Below, piece after piece: positions 26,239-33,704 of a stretch of DNA of 49,894 bases. Numbering within the stretch: the stretch's first letter is position 1; each line of letters opens with the position of its first letter. This stretch comes from Bacillota bacterium (GTDB lineage: Bacteria; Bacillota; Clostridia; Oscillospirales; Oscillospiraceae): positions 1 through 49,894 of the forward strand of contig JAUNCL010000018.1 of NCBI GenBank assembly GCA_030535235.1, in the 5' to 3' direction. A program made the position numbers and the translations under genes. The notes beneath the pieces are model-generated. The model searched no databases. It had not been told where the DNA came from and saw only the letters and a list, made by a program, of their open reading frames with translations.

Positions 26239-28179
26239 ATGCCTAATCATCTGCAGGGCCAGACCAGCCCTTACCTGCGCCAGCACGCAGACAATCCCGT
26301 GGACTGGTACCCCTGGTGCGAGGAGGCCTTCGAGAAGGCCCGCCGGGAGGACAAGCCCATCTTTCTCAGCATCGGCTACAGCACCTGCCACTGGTGCCAC
26401 GTGATGGCCCACGAGAGCTTCGAGGACCGGGAGGTGGCCGACCTGCTGAACCAGGGGTTCGTGTCCATCAAGGTGGACCGGGAGGAGCGGCCGGACATCG
26501 ACAGCCTCTACATGGCCGTCTGCCAGGCCTTCACCGGCAGCGGCGGCTGGCCCACCACCCTCTTCCTGACCCCCGACCAGAAGCCCTTCTTCGCCGGGAC
26601 CTACTTCCCCAAGGAGAGCCAGCGGGGCATGCCCGGGATGCTCCACCTGCTGCCCGCCGTCCTCCGGGCCTGGCGGGAGGACCGGGACCGGCTGCTGGCC
26701 CCGGCAGACCAGGTCATCGCCCTCCTCCGGGAGAGTGCCTCTGCCGCCTCCCAAATTCCCGACGAGGCCGTTCTCCAAAAGGCCCTCAGCCTCTGGCGGG
26801 CCTCCTACGACGCCGTGTGGGGCGGCTTCGGCTCGGCCCCCAAGTTCCCCATGGGCCACAACCTGTGGTGTCTGCTGACCTGCGGGGAAAAGCTCCACGA
26901 CCCCACCGCCCTGGCCATGGCAGAGAAGACCCTAACGCATCTCTACCAGGGCGGCATCTTCGACCACATCGGCGGGGGATTCTCCCGGTACTCCACCGAC
27001 CGGCAGTTCCTCATCCCCCACTTTGAAAAGATGCTCTACGACAACGCCCTGCTGATGCTGGCCTACTGCAAGGCCTACTCCCTCACCCAGCGGGAGCGGT
27101 ACAAAGAGGTGGCCCTGCAAACGGCCCACTATGTGCTGGAGGAGCTGACCCTTCCCTCCGGGGCCTTCGCCAGCGCCCAGGACGCCGACAGCCAGGGCCA
27201 GGAGGGCAGCTACTACGCCTTCCGGCCGGAGGAGATCCTTGACGTACTGGGGGCGTCCGACGGAACCCGGTTCAACCAGTGCTACCACATCTCTCCCCAG
27301 GGGAACTTTGAGGGGAAGAGCATCCCCACCCTGATCCCGGGGGACACCGCTCCGGAGACCTGCGCCGGTCTTCTGCCCAAGCTCCGGGCCTACCGGCGGC
27401 AGCGGTATCCCCTCCACCGGGACGACAAGGTCCTCACCGGCTGGAACGGGCTGATGATCGCCGCCATGGCCTGGCTGTACCGGGTCACCGGGCAGATCCT
27501 CTTTCTGAAAGCCGCCCAACGGGCCTGGCAGTATCTGGACCAGCACCACCGCCAGGGAGACGAGCTCTTCGCCTCCAGCCTGGAGGAACAGACCGGTCCC
27601 AAGGGCTTTTTAGAGGACTACGCCTTCCTCTCCCTGGGCCTTGTGACCCTCTACGAAGTCACCCTGGAGCCGGGCTATCTGGACCAGGCCCAGGCCTTCT
27701 GCCGCAAGGTCCAGGCCGACTTTGCCGACCGGGAGCGGGGCGGGTTTTACCTCACCGCCAAGGACAGCGACCCCCTCCTGATCCGCCCCAAGGAGACTGC
27801 CGACGGGGCCCTCCCCAGCGGTAACACCACCATGGCCTACGTCCTGGTGCGGCTGGCCCACCTGACCAGGGACGAGGCATGGGGCCAGGCCGCCCAGCAG
27901 CAGCTCTCCTTCCTGGCCGGGCAGGCATCGGCCTATCCCACCGCCTACCCCATGTACCTGCTGGCCCTGCTGGAGGACGCCTATCCCCCGGAGGAGATCA
28001 CCGTCACGGCCAAAAGCGCCAAGGACCTGCCCCAGCAGCCCTGGCCCTTCCCTCTGGACGCGGTGGTCACCTTCCACGACACCCCCTCCGATGCCCATCC
28101 CCTCCTCAACGACCAGACCACCTACGCAGTCTGCCGGAGAACCACCTGCCTGCCCCTCTCCAACCATTACCCGCAGTAA
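26239..28179 (+). CDS. YyaL/DUF255 thioredoxin-domain protein
   Basis: This 646-residue protein is of the YyaL / spermatogenesis-associated protein 20 type. The N-terminal 170 residues are a thioredoxin-like DUF255 domain with [14 protein letters not shown] (48-61), in which Cys50 and Cys53 form a CxxC pair, then [11 protein letters not shown] and [11 protein letters not shown]. The remainder is an alpha/alpha toroid resembling N-acylglucosamine epimerase-type enzymes ([29 protein letters not shown]). The function in bacteria is unknown. A strong AAAAGGAGG site lies seven bases before the ATG. It begins 31 bases after the pfp terminator. CATACTAT (26211-26218) sits just upstream and could be a -10, but no matching -35 is clear. 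Confidence 0.9.
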
Positions 28180-28354: not shown

Positions 28355-29869
28355 TCAGCGTGGAATCAACAGCATCTGACCGGGGTAGAGCTCGCTGGAG
28401 GTCAGGCCGCTGGCCTCCAGGATCTCCTGGTCGGTGGAGAGGCAGGCCTTGGCCACGTCCCACAGGGTCTCCCCCTGCCGGACCGCCCGGAGGATCACCG
28501 AGGGACGCTGGCCCTCTTCCTCCCGCTTCTCCCCCAGGGCCACCCGGTCCACCAGGGATGCCTCCCGGCTCTCCAGGGCCATCCACCGGAAGCTTAGGGG
28601 GAGGGAGAACTCCACCCCCTCACCGGCGGGGGCCGCCGTGGGCATCCGCAGGATCTCTCCGGAAAAGACGCAGGGAGTCTCCCCCTGGCCGGACAGGCGA
28701 TGCTCCGCCGTCACCGTCTGGTGGAGGCTGGCAGGGCCCTCCTCCCCCTGGTAGAGGACTATCACATGGACCTCCTGGGTGAGGATGCGGTCCTCTCCCT
28801 CCTGCCGCTGTCCCCTCCGGCCCAGGCGGGCCTGGACCTCCAGGATCTCCACCGGCAGGCCCTGGGTCTCCATCACAGACCGGACGGTCTCCTGGTCCTC
28901 TCCCCGGCCCAGCAGGCGCTGAACCGTCACGGGGCTCTCCCCGGTCTCCAGGTCATACACCGTGCTGTACAGATCGGCCAGCACCGGGACCTCCACCTGC
29001 TTCCGCAGGACAGCCTGGGCCTGGAGGGCCAGCTCCGCCTGGAAGGCGTGGGGGTCCTCCCCGTCCAGGGTGCACTTCACGTCGGTAAAGAGCAGCTCCA
29101 GATCGCACAGGGCGTCCTCGCTGTCCTCCCCGGCGTCCATGATCTGGGAGTAGGGCAGACGGAACTCGTTCTGAAAGACCGAGCCATCCTCTCCCCGGCA
29201 CAGGACCCGCAGGGCGGCCTCTCCCTTGAAGACCAGCTTGGTGCCGATGACCCGGGCCTCCGAGCAGGTGCAGCCCACCCGGGTCCCCAGCAGGCGCTCC
29301 ACCGCCGGCCGTCCGGCGGGCAGCGTCAGGGTGTCACTGTAAGTAAAGCTCTTGTCCTGGGCGCTCACCGCCATCAGGCTGCGGAACACATCGGTCCGCT
29401 GACGGATGGCATAGGTCTCCCCCTCCTCCGCCAGGGTGGCCAGGGAGAGGGTCTGGGGGGCAAAGCCCTCCACCTCCATCTGCCAGTTGGCCCGCACCAG
29501 GACCTTGCGGGGGTTGAGCAGGTGGACATCCACCGACAGGACGCTGGGGATGACCCGGAGCATACACCGCCGGGTGACCTTTGGCAGGTCCGGGGAGGCG
29601 GCGATGGGCAGGGTCACCTCCATGGCCTCCAGAGCCCCCTCCCCTTCCGGCTGGTAGAGGATGGTGACCTTCAGCAGACCGGAGAACTCCGCCTTCCCCT
29701 CCTGGGGCTCCTTGCGCTGCAGCAGCAGCTTCCCCTCCCCGTCCAGCACCTGCCAGATGTCCGGGCAGGCGTCGGGGACGATCATTTCCGCGGTTTCTTC
29801 CTGTTCCAATGTGGTGCGGCAGACGGTCTCCCAGCACCGCACAGTTTCTCGCCGGAGTTCCAATTCCAT
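28355..29869 (-). CDS. sipL: SipL-like SPOCS (DUF3794) and LysM protein
   Basis: The 504-residue protein has three SPOCS/DUF3794-like segments (about 27-92, 195-245 and 335-400) and a C-terminal LysM domain (about 459-504, beginning AVRQGETLWDVA and ending YPGQMLLIPR). This architecture and size match C. difficile SipL, which binds the spore ATPase SpoIVA through LysM and is needed for coat localisation and cortex assembly around the forespore. The neighbouring spoVM supports this, because SpoVM anchors SpoIVA. A sigma-E-like promoter (29915-29943) suggests mother-cell expression. The AAAGGA site is about twelve bases from the ATG, rather far. Other DUF3794-LysM proteins exist, so the orthology call is moderate. 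Confidence 0.75.
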   Translation of the reverse strand: MELELRRETVRCWETVCRTTLEQEETAEMIVPDACPDIWQVLDGEGKLLLQRKEPQEGKAEFSGLLKVTILYQPEGEGALEAMEVTLPIAASPDLPKVTRRCMLRVIPSVLSVDVHLLNPRKVLVRANWQMEVEGFAPQTLSLATLAEEGETYAIRQRTDVFRSLMAVSAQDKSFTYSDTLTLPAGRPAVERLLGTRVGCTCSEARVIGTKLVFKGEAALRVLCRGEDGSVFQNEFRLPYSQIMDAGEDSEDALCDLELLFTDVKCTLDGEDPHAFQAELALQAQAVLRKQVEVPVLADLYSTVYDLETGESPVTVQRLLGRGEDQETVRSVMETQGLPVEILEVQARLGRRGQRQEGEDRILTQEVHVIVLYQGEEGPASLHQTVTAEHRLSGQGETPCVFSGEILRMPTAAPAGEGVEFSLPLSFRWMALESREASLVDRVALGEKREEEGQRPSVILRAVRQGETLWDVAKACLSTDQEILEASGLTSSELYPGQMLLIPR

Positions 29870-29914: not shown

Positions 29915-29943
29915 ATCCTATGTCCGGCCTCCGGCGGGTATGC
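29915..29943 (-). promoter_or_regulatory. candidate sigma-E-type promoter for sipL
   Basis: Read on the - strand: GCATACC (29943-29937), a 14-base spacer, CATAGGAT (29922-29915). This fits the mother-cell sigma-E pattern (ATA-containing -35, CATAnnnT -10). It overlaps the end of spoVM and lies 45 bases before sipL. Confidence 0.5.
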
Positions 29944-29947
29944 CGGT

Positions 29948-30016
29948 TCAGATGCGGAAAATCTTTTTCAATAACCCCGCCAGGGCCTTGGGCGCGCTCA
30001 GTACCACCATTTTCAT
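29948..30016 (-). CDS. spoVM: Stage V sporulation protein SpoVM (22 residues)
   Basis: This tiny gene begins MKMVVLSAPKALAG and ends in a basic, hydrophobic tail; ATG is at 30016 and TGA at 29950-29948. SpoVM is an amphipathic peptide that recognises the convex forespore membrane and tethers SpoIVA there. The B. subtilis peptide (26 residues) shares Met1, Lys2, Pro9, Lys10, Leu12 and Gly14 in register; Pro9 is the residue known to be critical. A GGGAGGGA ribosome site (30029-30022) lies five bases upstream. The position just after rsgA in a stp-pknB-rsgA cluster mirrors B. subtilis, where spoVM lies a little beyond rsgA. The next gene, a SipL-like SpoIVA partner, reinforces the call. Confidence 0.85.
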   Translation of the reverse strand: MKMVVLSAPKALAGLLKKIFRI

Positions 30017-30039
30017 GTGAGTCCCTCCCTTCCGATAAC

Positions 30040-30087
30040 ACACCACCCGGCTGTTCTCAGTCTATGCTGAAAACAGCCGGGTGGTGT
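30040..30087 (-). terminator. long hairpin between rsgA and spoVM
   Basis: ACACCACCCGGCTGTT (30040-30055) pairs perfectly with AACAGCCGGGTGGTGT (30072-30087), a 16-bp stem. A T-run is lacking on the - strand, so it may be an imperfect terminator of the rsgA transcript. CATAGACT in its loop (30066-30059) resembles a sporulation -10 box for spoVM, but no matching -35 is seen. Confidence 0.6.
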
Positions 30088-30091
30088 TCGT

Positions 30092-30991
30092 TTACCCCTT
30101 GGGATTTTCCCAGGGCTTGTTCTCCTTGGCCAGCTCGTAGAGCCGCACATAGCTGCGGTGGCGGCTGGGTTGGATCTTGCCCTCCTTCAGGGCCTCCAGG
30201 ACGGCGCAGCCCTTCTCCTTCACATGGGCGCAGCCGATGAAGCGGCACTGGTCCAGGTAGGGCCGGAACTCCCGGAAGGCGTGCTGAAGGGCCTCCTTCT
30301 CCCGGATCTCCCCCTTGTCGGTGTCAAAGGCGGAGAAGCCGGGGGTGTCGGCGATGAGCCCCCCGGAGACCGGGAAGAGCTCCACATGGCGGGTGGTGTG
30401 GCGGCCCCGGCCCAGCTTCTCGCTGATCTCCCCGGTGGCCAGACCGAAGTCGGGCTCCAGGGCGTTGAGGATGCTGGACTTGCCCACGCCGGAGTTGCCG
30501 GTGAAGGCCGAGATCTTCCCGGCCAGCAGAGAGCGAAGCTCCTCGATGCCCTGGCCGGTCTCGGCACTGACCCGGATGGTGTGGAACCCGGCGGCGTCAT
30601 AGATGCGGAAAAGCTCCTCCGCCTGGACCAGATCCCACTTGTTGATGCAGAGAATGGGCTCGCAGTCCTTGGTCTCTGCCAAGGCGGTGATCCGGTCCAC
30701 CAGAAAGGGGTCGGTCACCGGAATGGCCCCAGAGGCGATGATGACCATCTGGTCGATGTTGGCCACAGCAGGCCGCTGGAAGAAGTTCCTGCGGGGCAGG
30801 ATCTCATCCAGGGAGCCGGTGCCGTCGGCCTGGACGGTGATGGCCGCCCGGTCCCCCACCAGGGGGGTGATTTTCTTGTAACGGAATTTCCCTCTGGCCC
30901 GGCAGGTGACCAGCTCCCCGTCGGGGCACTGGACATAATAGAACCCGCTGAGGGCCTTGAGGATGATTCCCTCTTTCTTTTGTTCCCTCAT
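30092..30991 (-). CDS. rsgA: Small ribosomal subunit biogenesis GTPase RsgA
   Basis: RsgA is a circularly permuted GTPase that assists late 30S maturation. The 299-residue protein has an N-terminal OB fold, then G4 (NKWD, 117-120) ahead of G1 (GNSGVGKS, 165-172), the order diagnostic of permutation, then DTPGFS as G3. The C-terminal zinc site is CRFIGCAH with a following Cys in EKGCAV. The start lies six bases after the pknB stop and has only a weak ribosome site, implying translational coupling. Next to stp and pknB, it follows the B. subtilis prpC-prkC-rsgA order; the kinase is known to phosphorylate RsgA there. Confidence 0.96.
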   Translation of the reverse strand: MREQKKEGIILKALSGFYYVQCPDGELVTCRARGKFRYKKITPLVGDRAAITVQADGTGSLDEILPRRNFFQRPAVANIDQMVIIASGAIPVTDPFLVDRITALAETKDCEPILCINKWDLVQAEELFRIYDAAGFHTIRVSAETGQGIEELRSLLAGKISAFTGNSGVGKSSILNALEPDFGLATGEISEKLGRGRHTTRHVELFPVSGGLIADTPGFSAFDTDKGEIREKEALQHAFREFRPYLDQCRFIGCAHVKEKGCAVLEALKEGKIQPSRHRSYVRLYELAKENKPWENPKG

Positions 30992-30997
30992 AGTCGA

Positions 30998-32956
30998 TCA
31001 AAACTGCACTTCTTTGGTTTCTACCAGCTCGTCATCGATATAGATGCAGACCTGCTGGGTGCCGGTGCCCTCCACGGAGGTGGTCACGATGCCCACGGAG
31101 GTGTTCACCACCTGGTTGTAGGCCTCCTGGCCGTCCACGGTGATGCGGACGGTGACGCTCTCCCGGTCGCTGGGCAGGGTCACGGAGATGGGCTGGGAGC
31201 TGATGGGCTTGGATTCCGGTCCCTTGCTGTAGTGCAGGGTGACGGCAGTCCCCTCCTCCACCTCGGTGTTGGGGGCGATGCTCTGGTAGACCACGATGCC
31301 CTTGTCCTTCTCGCTGGCGATCTCCTCGGTACTGCCCACCTTGAGACCCAGGTTTTCCAGCATCCGCCGGGCCTGGTCAATGGACTGGCCGGTGACCGAG
31401 GGCACGATGACCGTCTGGCTCTTGGGCCCCTTGCTGATGACCAGATGGACCTGGTCGCCGGGGTAAAGCGCGGTGCCCTTGGCGGGGCTGTAGGAGATGA
31501 CGCGGTTCTCTTCCACATCGTCGGAGAACTCATAGTCCGGGGTATCGACCTTGAGGCCGATCTCCTGGAGGGCCTTGACGGCGTCCTCGTAGGTCATCTT
31601 CTTCACGTCGATCATCTTCACAGCCTCCTGGCCGCCGCTGATGGTCACGGTGATGGTGGAGCCCTCCTCCACCTCCTTGCCCGGCTTGGGGTTCTGGTCC
31701 ATGATCTGGTCCTTCTCAAACTGATCGCTGTATTCCACCGATCCCTGGACCACCTTGAACTTTTCTGAAAGCTCCGGGTCGCCGTAGACCTCCGACAAGG
31801 TCATGCCGGTCAGGTCCGGGACCTCCGCCGTGGGGGCCTTGTTGAAGATACCGCTGAAGAAGGTCAGCCACAGGATCAGGGCCGCCCCCACCAGGAAGAC
31901 GATGACCACGATGGGAATTACCTTGCTCTTGCTGTTCTCCTCCTCGTACTCCTCCGGCGGTTCCTCCCGGCGCCGGGGAGGCGGCGGGGGAGCGGGACGG
32001 GTCCGGACGGGGGGACGCTGGCGGCGGCTCTGGGCGCCGGTGCCGCCCTCCACCACCTGGGTGGGCTCGTCGGGCATGGGCTGGGCGCCGTGGAAGCTGG
32101 CCAGATTGTAGTGGAAAAGGATCTGAGGATTTTTGCGAAAATCCTCCAGGTCCCGGAGCATGGCCCCGGCGTTGAGATACCGCTGGTCGATCCGGGAGGC
32201 CATGGCCTTCATGGTGATCTCCTCCAGGCCCGGTGGGATCTCCGGGTTCAGTTCCCTGGGGGAGAGGGGGGTGGCGTTGATGTGCTGGATGGCCACAGAC
32301 ACCGCCGAGTCCCCGTCGAAGGGCAGGCGGCCGGTGAGCATCTCGTAGAGGACCACGCCGGCGGAGTAGATATCCGCCCGGGCGTCGATGTGGCTGCCCC
32401 GGGCCTGCTCGGGGGAGATATAGTGGACCGAACCCAGGGCCTCCTGGGTGAGGGTGGTCTGGGCGGCGGACATGACCCGGGCGATGCCGAAGTCGGCCAC
32501 CTTCACGCTGCCGTCCCGGAGGACCATGATGTTCTGGGGCTTGATGTCCCGGTGGATGATCCCCCTGCCGTGGGCGTGGCCCAGAGCCCGGACGATCTGG
32601 GTGATGAAGTAGAGAGATTCCCTCCAGTTGAGGCTGCCGTTCTTCTTCTGCATATATTGCTTGAGGGTGATCCCGTCAATGAGCTCCATGACGATATAGT
32701 CCAGATCATCCCCCCGGCTGACGTCGTAGACGGAAACGATGTTCGGGTGGGAGAGCATGGCCACCGCCTGGGCCTCCTCGTGGAAGCGGCGGCGGAACTC
32801 CGCATCGGAGGCCAGGTCCTTCTTCAGCACCTTGATGGCCACGAAGCGGTGGAGCCGGTGGCAGTAGGCTTTGTAGACCACCGCCATCCCCCCTACCCCG
32901 ATCACGTCGAGTATCTCATACCGGTTATCGAGCATTTTACCGATGTATTGATCCAT
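30998..32956 (-). CDS. pknB: PASTA-domain Ser/Thr protein kinase
   Basis: This 652-residue membrane kinase senses muropeptides or lipid II and controls growth and germination in related bacteria. Residues 13-280 are a Hanks kinase with Lys42, HRDIKPQN (135-142), DFG (155-157) and activation loop SVHYISPEQARG. A Pro/Arg-rich juxtamembrane segment (315-335) precedes one membrane helix (347-369). Outside the cell are three PASTA repeats (about 379-443, 449-512 and 518-584), then a 70-residue beta-rich tail that is not PASTA-like. All catalytic residues are present. It lies 16 bases behind its phosphatase Stp. Confidence 0.95.
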   Translation of the reverse strand: MDQYIGKMLDNRYEILDVIGVGGMAVVYKAYCHRLHRFVAIKVLKKDLASDAEFRRRFHEEAQAVAMLSHPNIVSVYDVSRGDDLDYIVMELIDGITLKQYMQKKNGSLNWRESLYFITQIVRALGHAHGRGIIHRDIKPQNIMVLRDGSVKVADFGIARVMSAAQTTLTQEALGSVHYISPEQARGSHIDARADIYSAGVVLYEMLTGRLPFDGDSAVSVAIQHINATPLSPRELNPEIPPGLEEITMKAMASRIDQRYLNAGAMLRDLEDFRKNPQILFHYNLASFHGAQPMPDEPTQVVEGGTGAQSRRQRPPVRTRPAPPPPPRRREEPPEEYEEENSKSKVIPIVVIVFLVGAALILWLTFFSGIFNKAPTAEVPDLTGMTLSEVYGDPELSEKFKVVQGSVEYSDQFEKDQIMDQNPKPGKEVEEGSTITVTISGGQEAVKMIDVKKMTYEDAVKALQEIGLKVDTPDYEFSDDVEENRVISYSPAKGTALYPGDQVHLVISKGPKSQTVIVPSVTGQSIDQARRMLENLGLKVGSTEEIASEKDKGIVVYQSIAPNTEVEEGTAVTLHYSKGPESKPISSQPISVTLPSDRESVTVRITVDGQEAYNQVVNTSVGIVTTSVEGTGTQQVCIYIDDELVETKEVQF

Positions 32957-32972
32957 GGCAACACACTCCTTT

Positions 32973-33704
32973 TCACAGTTGCAAGAGTACGATGGTCACG
33001 TTGTCCGGCGCGCCTTCTTCCAGCGTCCGGGCCAGGAGCCGCCGGCAGATCTCCTCCGGCGTTCCACCGGCCAGGATCTCCTTCCGGATCTCCTCGTCGG
33101 TGACCACATTGACCAATCCATCCGAGCACAGGAGGACGGCGTCCCCCTCCTCCACCTGCCGCTGGAACAGGTCCACCTGGACCTGTCTGGCGGTGCCAAG
33201 GGCCCGGGTGATCAGGTTTTTCTGGGGGTGGTGGCGGGCTTCCTCGGGGGTGATATCCCCCTTCCGCACCAGGTCCTCCACCACGGAATGATCCCGGGTG
33301 ATCCGCTGTATGACGCCCCGGGTGATGTGGTAGGCCCGGCTGTCCCCCACGTTGACCACCCAGAGGGTGTTCTCCCGCAGGAGGGCCCCCACCAGGGTGG
33401 TCCCCATCCCGGCATAGGCCCGGTTGGTGCCGGCCTTCAGATAGACCGCCCGGTTGGCCGCCTCGGTGGCCTGGACCAGCAGGGCGCCCTCCTCCTGGTA
33501 CTCCTCGGGCTCCTCCAGGCAGACCATGTGGTTCCGGAACCGGGAGACCGCCATGGCGCTGGCCAGGTCTCCGGCAGCCGCGCCCCCCATGCCGTCGCAT
33601 ACCACGGCCCAGGCGTAGGCGCCCTCCCTGAGCTCATAGGCGCAGGCGTCCTGATTGTCCCGACGAACCAATCCTCTGTCCGTCAGTCCCCATAGGGAAA
33701 CCAT
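32973..33704 (-). CDS. stp: PP2C-family Ser/Thr phosphatase Stp/PrpC
   Basis: The 243-residue metal-dependent phosphatase reverses the PASTA kinase. Metal-binding motifs are visible in order: VRRDNQDA, CDGMGGAAAG, VGDSRAY, LCSDGLVNVV and GAPDNVTIV. It is a single cytoplasmic domain of normal length. It sits 16 bases before pknB and 19 bases behind rlmN, as in most Firmicutes. Confidence 0.95.
   Translation of the reverse strand: MVSLWGLTDRGLVRRDNQDACAYELREGAYAWAVVCDGMGGAAAGDLASAMAVSRFRNHMVCLEEPEEYQEEGALLVQATEAANRAVYLKAGTNRAYAGMGTTLVGALLRENTLWVVNVGDSRAYHITRGVIQRITRDHSVVEDLVRKGDITPEEARHHPQKNLITRALGTARQVQVDLFQRQVEEGDAVLLCSDGLVNVVTDEEIRKEILAGGTPEEICRRLLARTLEEGAPDNVTIVLLQL

Follow-up and report, generated by a model that had tools for sequence, protein, structure and literature searches.

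The 22-codon open reading frame at positions 29948..30016 on the minus strand of the window (i.e. the whole stretch of DNA analysed, 49,894 nucleotides) is, with a probability of approximately 0.92, a genuine spoVM gene, identified through the match of its product, MKMVVLSAPKALAGLLKKIFRI, to the NCBIfam SpoVM_broad model and through its conservation in the taxonomic family of the window. The encoded SpoVM adds one more member to a protein family that is already known. A frame of this length with a ribosome-binding site is by itself nothing unusual, and it is lifted above chance by being the best match to the model in its own genome, by its constant place before sipL, by the conservation of Pro9, Leu16 and Phe20 in the family and by the pattern of synonymous and nonsynonymous differences. 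Besides the gene itself, the comparison of genomes adds a conserved spoVM-sipL arrangement, two candidate promoter types and a family of small membrane proteins.

The spoVM frame and its neighbours

The start codon (ATG, 30016-30014) is preceded, six bases ahead, by the ribosome-binding site AAGGGAGGG (30023..30031, minus strand), and the stop codon (TGA) occupies 29950-29948, so that the ATG-to-TGA frame of 22 codons described in the initial annotation is present, as are all of the residues singled out there, namely Met-Lys at positions 1-2, Pro9-Lys10, Leu12 and Gly14. The peptide also has the hydrophobic residues Leu6 and Leu15, alongside Lys2 and Pro9, and carries Ser and Ala at positions 7 and 8, where the majority of the family has Lys and Ser. 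NF033436 (SpoVM_broad) aligns over peptide residues 1-22 and profile positions 1-22 of 26 with an E value of 1.2e-4 and a score of 22 bits, below the curated NCBIfam cut-off of 31 bits, which is an annotation threshold and no biological feature. When the window genome (2.25 Mb, 97.7% complete) was scanned with the SpoVM model, spoVM gave the best match (E 0.0042), the only other one having an E value of 0.63.

Threshold-based annotation would leave the window gene unnamed, and the problem is a general one. A class-wide search with NF033436 gave matches at E ≤ 0.01 in 95 of the 291 genomes, only nine of which were above the cut-off of the model, whose threshold leaves out most of the clostridial SpoVM candidates. 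Galperin et al. (2012, PMC3533761) describe spoVM as rarely recognised in annotation and leave open whether distant versions are present in those clostridia in which it has not been found. The initial description of the gene as short and easily missed is correct insofar as the peptide is shorter than the 26-residue SpoVM of Bacillus subtilis (PMC5607322) and, besides being followed by sipL, scores under the cut-off; however, 22 residues is an ordinary length within the family, where 82 unique sequences drawn from 104 loci range from 21 to 38 residues with a mode of 23 (22 residues in seven sequences, 23 in 37 and 24 in 18).

The hydrophobic moment calculated for residues 10-22 is 0.72, a value reached by 1.2% of 5000 shuffles, and from this computation the product is predicted to be a short, strongly amphipathic helix. 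Searching solved structures with the peptide yielded no match; the two matches obtained with profile A1, built from 20 SpoVM peptides encoded ahead of sipL, were judged to be due to chance.

Upstream of spoVM, and like it on the minus strand, are rsgA (30092..30991; ribosome small subunit-dependent GTPase A, TIGR00157, E 3.7e-66), a gene for a PrkC-type PASTA Ser/Thr kinase (30998..32956; NF033483, E 1.2e-183) and one for a PrpC-type PP2C phosphatase (32973..33704; NF033484, E 6.2e-81). Downstream, again on the minus strand, is sipL (28355..29869), with 75 bases between the end of rsgA and spoVM and 78 between spoVM and the start of sipL. The 504-residue SipL matches PF12673 (SipL/SPOCS, E 6.8e-18) in two stretches and ends with a LysM domain (PF01476, E 1.6e-8, residues 463-503). 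Clostridioides difficile SipL (CD3567) is likewise described as consisting of DUF3794/SPOCS domains and a C-terminal LysM (PMC6436350), the SPOCS domains being three in the latter protein as opposed to the two stretches over threshold in the former. A DUF255/thioredoxin-like gene (PF03190, E 6.9e-78; 26239-28179, plus strand) is convergent to sipL. Elsewhere, the window genome contains a gene for SpoIVA (SpoIVA_ATPase, E 7.2e-115).

The order priA-def-fmt-rsmB-rlmN-prpC-prkC-rsgA-spoVM in the window, of which only prpC, prkC and rsgA were scanned, resembles the order in B. subtilis, where spoVM also lies downstream of rsgA (rsgA-rpe-thiN-spoVM-rpmB). This B. subtilis-like arrangement of the upstream genes suggests that spoVM is in its ancestral place and that sipL is the newcomer. 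In C. difficile, spoVM is found near rpmB and sipL is CD3567, unlike the window, where the two genes adjoin.

The window peptide shares the Met-Lys start, Pro9 and an amphipathic C-terminal half with B. subtilis SpoVM (NF033436). The SpoVM of B. subtilis embeds in the forespore membrane, senses positive curvature by virtue of a kink at Pro9 and recruits SpoIVA (PMC5607322, PMC7549369), roles having been described for K2, I6, P9 and I15 (PMC5607322). The key residues are kept in C. difficile SpoVM, as they are in the window, and Pro9 is given as the only completely conserved residue of SpoVM in the legend to figure 1 of Ribis et al. (2017, PMC5607322). By taking into account K2, P9, the hydrophobic residues at positions 6 and 15, the amphipathic stretch 10-22 and the presence of a SpoIVA gene, the likeliest role of the window peptide is the usual one of SpoVM. 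Thus, a short amphipathic helix with Pro9 would lie in the outer forespore membrane, on the side that faces the mother cell, where it would sense the convex curvature and help SpoIVA polymerise, and SipL would bind SpoIVA through its LysM domain, as it does in C. difficile (PMC6436350), so that the basement layer of the spore coat would be completed. It is by analogy with the work on B. subtilis and C. difficile that the peptide would insert into the membrane, bind SpoIVA and cooperate with SipL, and that both proteins are proposed to act on SpoIVA. The SpoVM of C. difficile also binds SpoIVA, but is reported to be largely dispensable, its loss causing an approximately 3-fold decrease of heat resistance (PMC5607322), so that the importance of SpoVM in the organism of the window cannot be assumed.

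Conservation of spoVM and its pairing with sipL

Of 200 genomes of the family, 169 were found to contain sipL and 88 gave a match to profile A1 at E ≤ 0.05 when searched in full. In all of the 83 genomes with a SpoVM match at E ≤ 0.003 the next gene on the same strand is sipL, at a distance of 63-301 bases (median, 82). The profile was built from peptides encoded beside sipL, but a search of whole genomes could have revealed matches elsewhere. Omitted from the count of 83 are five genomes with E values of 0.013-0.037 (G047, G141, G148, G123 and G097) as well as weak second places in other genomes; the match in G148, which adjoins one to the small membrane protein TM50 discussed below, may be real. 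Gene order is thus of help in finding SpoVM, at least in one large family where it is encoded directly before sipL.

Pro9 is present in all 82 unique family sequences, Phe20 in 80, Leu16 in 79, Gly14 in 71 and Lys2 in 65. The initial annotation had proposed to judge the frame by its conservation in relatives with the same rsgA-sipL neighbourhood and by the balance of synonymous and nonsynonymous changes. Neither test refutes it. Both the peptide and a ribosome-binding site are kept in such relatives (20 bases upstream compared in 82 loci), and when the window is compared with its five close relatives L004 and L182-L185, synonymous differences are far more frequent than nonsynonymous ones (pS 0.578, pN 0.067; pN/pS 0.116), whereas in the two other reading frames of the same six sequences pS is 0.13 and 0.09 and pN is 0.22 in each. 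These values show strong purifying selection on spoVM among close relatives. The nearest named records are, from the identity of SipL, Evtepia gabavorous (L182, 68%) and Candidatus Evtepia faecigallinarum (L183, 65%), and the window is accordingly likely to come from Evtepia. The alternative that the frame arose by chance between two genes and merely resembles spoVM could draw on the abundance of short frames with a purine-rich site and on the score under the curated cut-off, but it is hard to reconcile with a match upstream of sipL in 83 of 83 genomes, with an invariant Pro9 and with a pN/pS ratio that is reversed in the other frames, and we regard it as extremely improbable.

The best 30 class-wide SpoVM loci were inspected over approximately 1.5 kb on each side of spoVM, a few of them being cut by contig ends, and sipL was seen in only two (L137 and L138), both from one genus in another family of the order. 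The SipL profile, derived from family sequences, is considered sensitive enough because it recovered all of the eight class-wide SipL loci found by the domain search (L154-L161). With sipL in two of the best 30 class-wide loci as compared with 83 of 83 in the family, the spoVM-sipL pairing seems to be derived, being maintained in the family of the window and rare outside it. The initial proposal of spoVM beside sipL, downstream of rsgA, is thus supported, and the arrangement is kept across the family; it is limited to a lineage, though, and does not require a single transcription unit. Our literature search found no report joining spoVM with rsgA, or spoVM with Oscillospiraceae, reports outside that search being possible.

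TM50, a predicted small membrane protein near spoVM

Subtracting the 83 genomes with a SpoVM match at E ≤ 0.003 from the 169 with sipL leaves 86, of which 60 loci (L063-L122) were read. The gap between rsgA and sipL contains, in most cases, a frame of approximately 47-54 residues that has basic ends and two hydrophobic stretches flanking, as a rule, a central Leu-Pro; we name its product TM50 (a predicted membrane protein of approximately 50 residues). A profile built from 27 TM50 peptides of these same loci (profile A2) scores in 55 of the 60, a figure that is partly circular, the whole-genome searches being separate. No SpoVM-like frame was found in 46 of the 55 loci, the other nine encode a divergent SpoVM-like peptide and the remaining five of the 60 have neither gene. 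The nine divergent peptides, such as MKVCVIKLPAFLGNFISRFLKK of L091, have no match to profile A1 at E ≤ 0.003 and were recovered by position, between TM50 and sipL (L065, L074, L076, L081, L082, L091, L096, L106 and L109). Outside the family, a SpoVM-like peptide with Ser instead of Pro at residue 9, MKVVVVKGSKFWGFVLRKMFHIKKEQ, is encoded on the minus strand of L137, between sipL and a TM50 frame that ends 22 bases ahead of it.

Nine close pairs of TM50 sequences gave a pS of 0.39 versus a pN of 0.068, as opposed to pS of 0.13 and 0.06 versus pN of 0.15 and 0.19 in the other frames. At E ≤ 0.001 the profile matches 125 of the 200 family genomes, and 49 of the 200 carry both TM50 and SpoVM, a number that led us to reject the idea that the two are mutually exclusive. 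In 46 of these 49 genomes TM50 is directly upstream of spoVM, at 8-59 bases in 42 and at 116-241 in four, the non-adjacent cases being G025, G068 and G115. Across the class, a TM50 match was obtained in 84 of the 291 genomes, some of the weakest falling inside long frames and being probably due to chance; 24 of the 28 genomes with both genes have TM50 20-74 bases upstream of spoVM (exceptions, G435, G357, G459 and G328). No SpoVM-like frame was found after TM50 in five of the best 20 class-wide TM50 loci, L162-L181 (L169, L177, L178, L180 and L181). The converging gene at these five loci looks like rpmB by eye. Four genomes of the genus of the window were searched, that of the window included, and none gave a TM50 match.

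The 27 members of profile A2 show no consistent Pfam or NCBIfam family. At E ≤ 0.1, the NCBIfam scan returned 12 families, none with more than three members (best E value, 0.0034), and the Pfam scan at least 25, none of them, among the matches listed, with more than two (best E value, 2.8e-4, for one member). A protein that resembles TM50 in size and place is CD25622, 50 residues long and described by Ribis et al. (2017, PMC5607322), the only report that a full-text literature search for it returned, as being of unknown function, encoded directly upstream of C. difficile spoVM, cotranscribed with it and apparently unique to Peptostreptococcaceae. Comparison by description, and not by sequence, suggests that CD25622 and TM50 belong to the same family, which, if so, would be much wider than Peptostreptococcaceae; the window genome, with no TM50 match, differs in this respect from C. 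difficile. The phenotype of an insertion in CD25622, which was probably polar on spoVM, resembled that of the spoVM mutant, and the authors attribute little impact to CD25622 itself (PMC5607322), making it doubtful that the protein is essential in C. difficile.

From its distribution, immediately ahead of spoVM across Clostridia and by itself in the place of spoVM in many genomes, TM50 may be a companion of, or a substitute for, SpoVM, in which case it would help explain the onset of coat assembly in organisms that lack SpoVM or can dispense with it. The 46 of 60 family loci with TM50 and no SpoVM-like frame found indicate that a recognisable SpoVM is not indispensable in the family and, together with the mild loss of heat resistance of C. 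difficile spoVM mutants, are in line with the gene of the window being a true homologue that matters as little as its C. difficile counterpart. The strong purifying selection on spoVM among close relatives speaks against such a minor role, which we consider rather unlikely.

Candidate promoters and the hairpin ahead of spoVM

The -10 elements recognised by sigma-E and sigma-K are very similar, the -35 element being ATA for the former and AC for the latter (Saujet et al. 2013, PMC3789822). A candidate sigma-E-type promoter for sipL, CATA-N16-CATAGGAT, is found at 29915..29942 (minus strand), starting five bases past the spoVM stop codon, and may be compared, as a motif read from sequence, with the promoter of C. 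difficile sipL, which has been mapped and assigned to sigma-E (PMC3789822). In the gap between spoVM and sipL, extended by the final 45 bases of spoVM, 44 of 81 family loci have CATA-N15-17-CATAnnnT, as opposed to a mean of 0.04 in shuffles, with a 16-base spacer in 41 of the 44; counting the window, five of the six close relatives have it. The motif is also present within the 130 bases that precede sipL in 15 of the 55 TM50 loci (shuffle mean, 0.06), and was not seen in the 120 bases before spoVM in any of 39 loci without TM50 or of 42 with it.

Between rsgA and spoVM, a hairpin with the loop CATAGA and an uninterrupted stem of 21 pairs that includes one G-U (30040..30087, minus strand) is a probable rsgA terminator. 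A clear T-run follows it in L183, and no clear one does in the window. The same region contains ACCACCCGGCTGTTTTCAGCATAGACT (30059..30085, minus strand), a candidate sigma-K-type promoter for spoVM with the -10-like element CATAGACT at 30066-30059. This element begins in the hairpin loop, so that a transcript starting from there would lack the full stem; the same gap is alike in L182-L184. The pattern AC-N16-18-C[AG]TAn[AG]CT precedes spoVM in 17 of the 39 family loci that lack TM50, as opposed to a mean of 0.06 in shuffles, and in none of the 42 with TM50, and is found upstream of TM50 in seven of 55 loci (shuffle mean, 0.06). It is missing in 22 of the 39 loci without TM50, including L004 and L185: L004, the closest relative by RsgA (90%), has a hairpin and no sigma-K-like motif, and L185 has a variant. 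Four of the six close relatives, counting the window, carry the motif, with L182, L183 and L184 sharing both motif and hairpin. The -35 element would point to sigma-K, and the motif fits a promoter for sigma-K or a related mother-cell factor placed, in part of the family, before whichever small gene comes first.

On these grounds, spoVM and sipL look like neighbours with separate candidate promoters, sigma-K-like for spoVM and of the sigma-E type for sipL. Since sipL has a motif of its own in the gap, the two genes are not necessarily transcribed together, and with promoters of different types the levels and timing of SpoVM and SipL may differ. The position of the frame just upstream of sipL and the strong hairpin ahead of it might instead be taken to indicate control of sipL translation by a leader peptide or attenuator, with no working SpoVM. 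However, the hairpin is upstream of spoVM and looks like the terminator of rsgA, the sipL promoter motif comes after the spoVM stop codon, the amino acid sequence is conserved and not just the frame, and sipL was not seen within approximately 1.5 kb on either side in 28 of the best 30 class-wide SpoVM loci, making such a regulatory element very improbable. With the frame read as spoVM, a broader scenario can be drawn, possible but rather doubtful at present, in which TM50 would be an old partner of SpoVM in Clostridia, replacing it in some lineages as the forespore-membrane anchor of the SpoIVA/SipL layer. The ancestral order would have been rsgA-TM50-spoVM-sipL, of which the genus of the window would have kept only spoVM, others only TM50 and some both, and spoVM, or TM50 ahead of it, would be read from the sigma-K-like promoter later than sipL, making SpoVM, in this family, a late stabiliser of the coat and not the factor that first organises it.

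At the level of the window genome, the sigma-K-like motif is found in three places versus five for the reversed control. YabG, named in a genomic signature of endosporulation (PMC10681294), gave no match in any of 101 genomes of the family and was unusable as a sigma-K control. The sigma-E-type motif occurs in 15 places versus six for the reversed pattern, and several of the 15 look like chance; no CATAnnnT was found within 200 bases upstream of the chosen start of spoIVA. Besides sipL, the genes that follow this motif include yabP, which scores 77.3 bits with TIGR02892 as compared with a cut-off of 75.4, and one resembling D-Ala-D-Ala carboxypeptidase genes, whose best E value is 1.5e-56 but which is below the cut-offs of the models.
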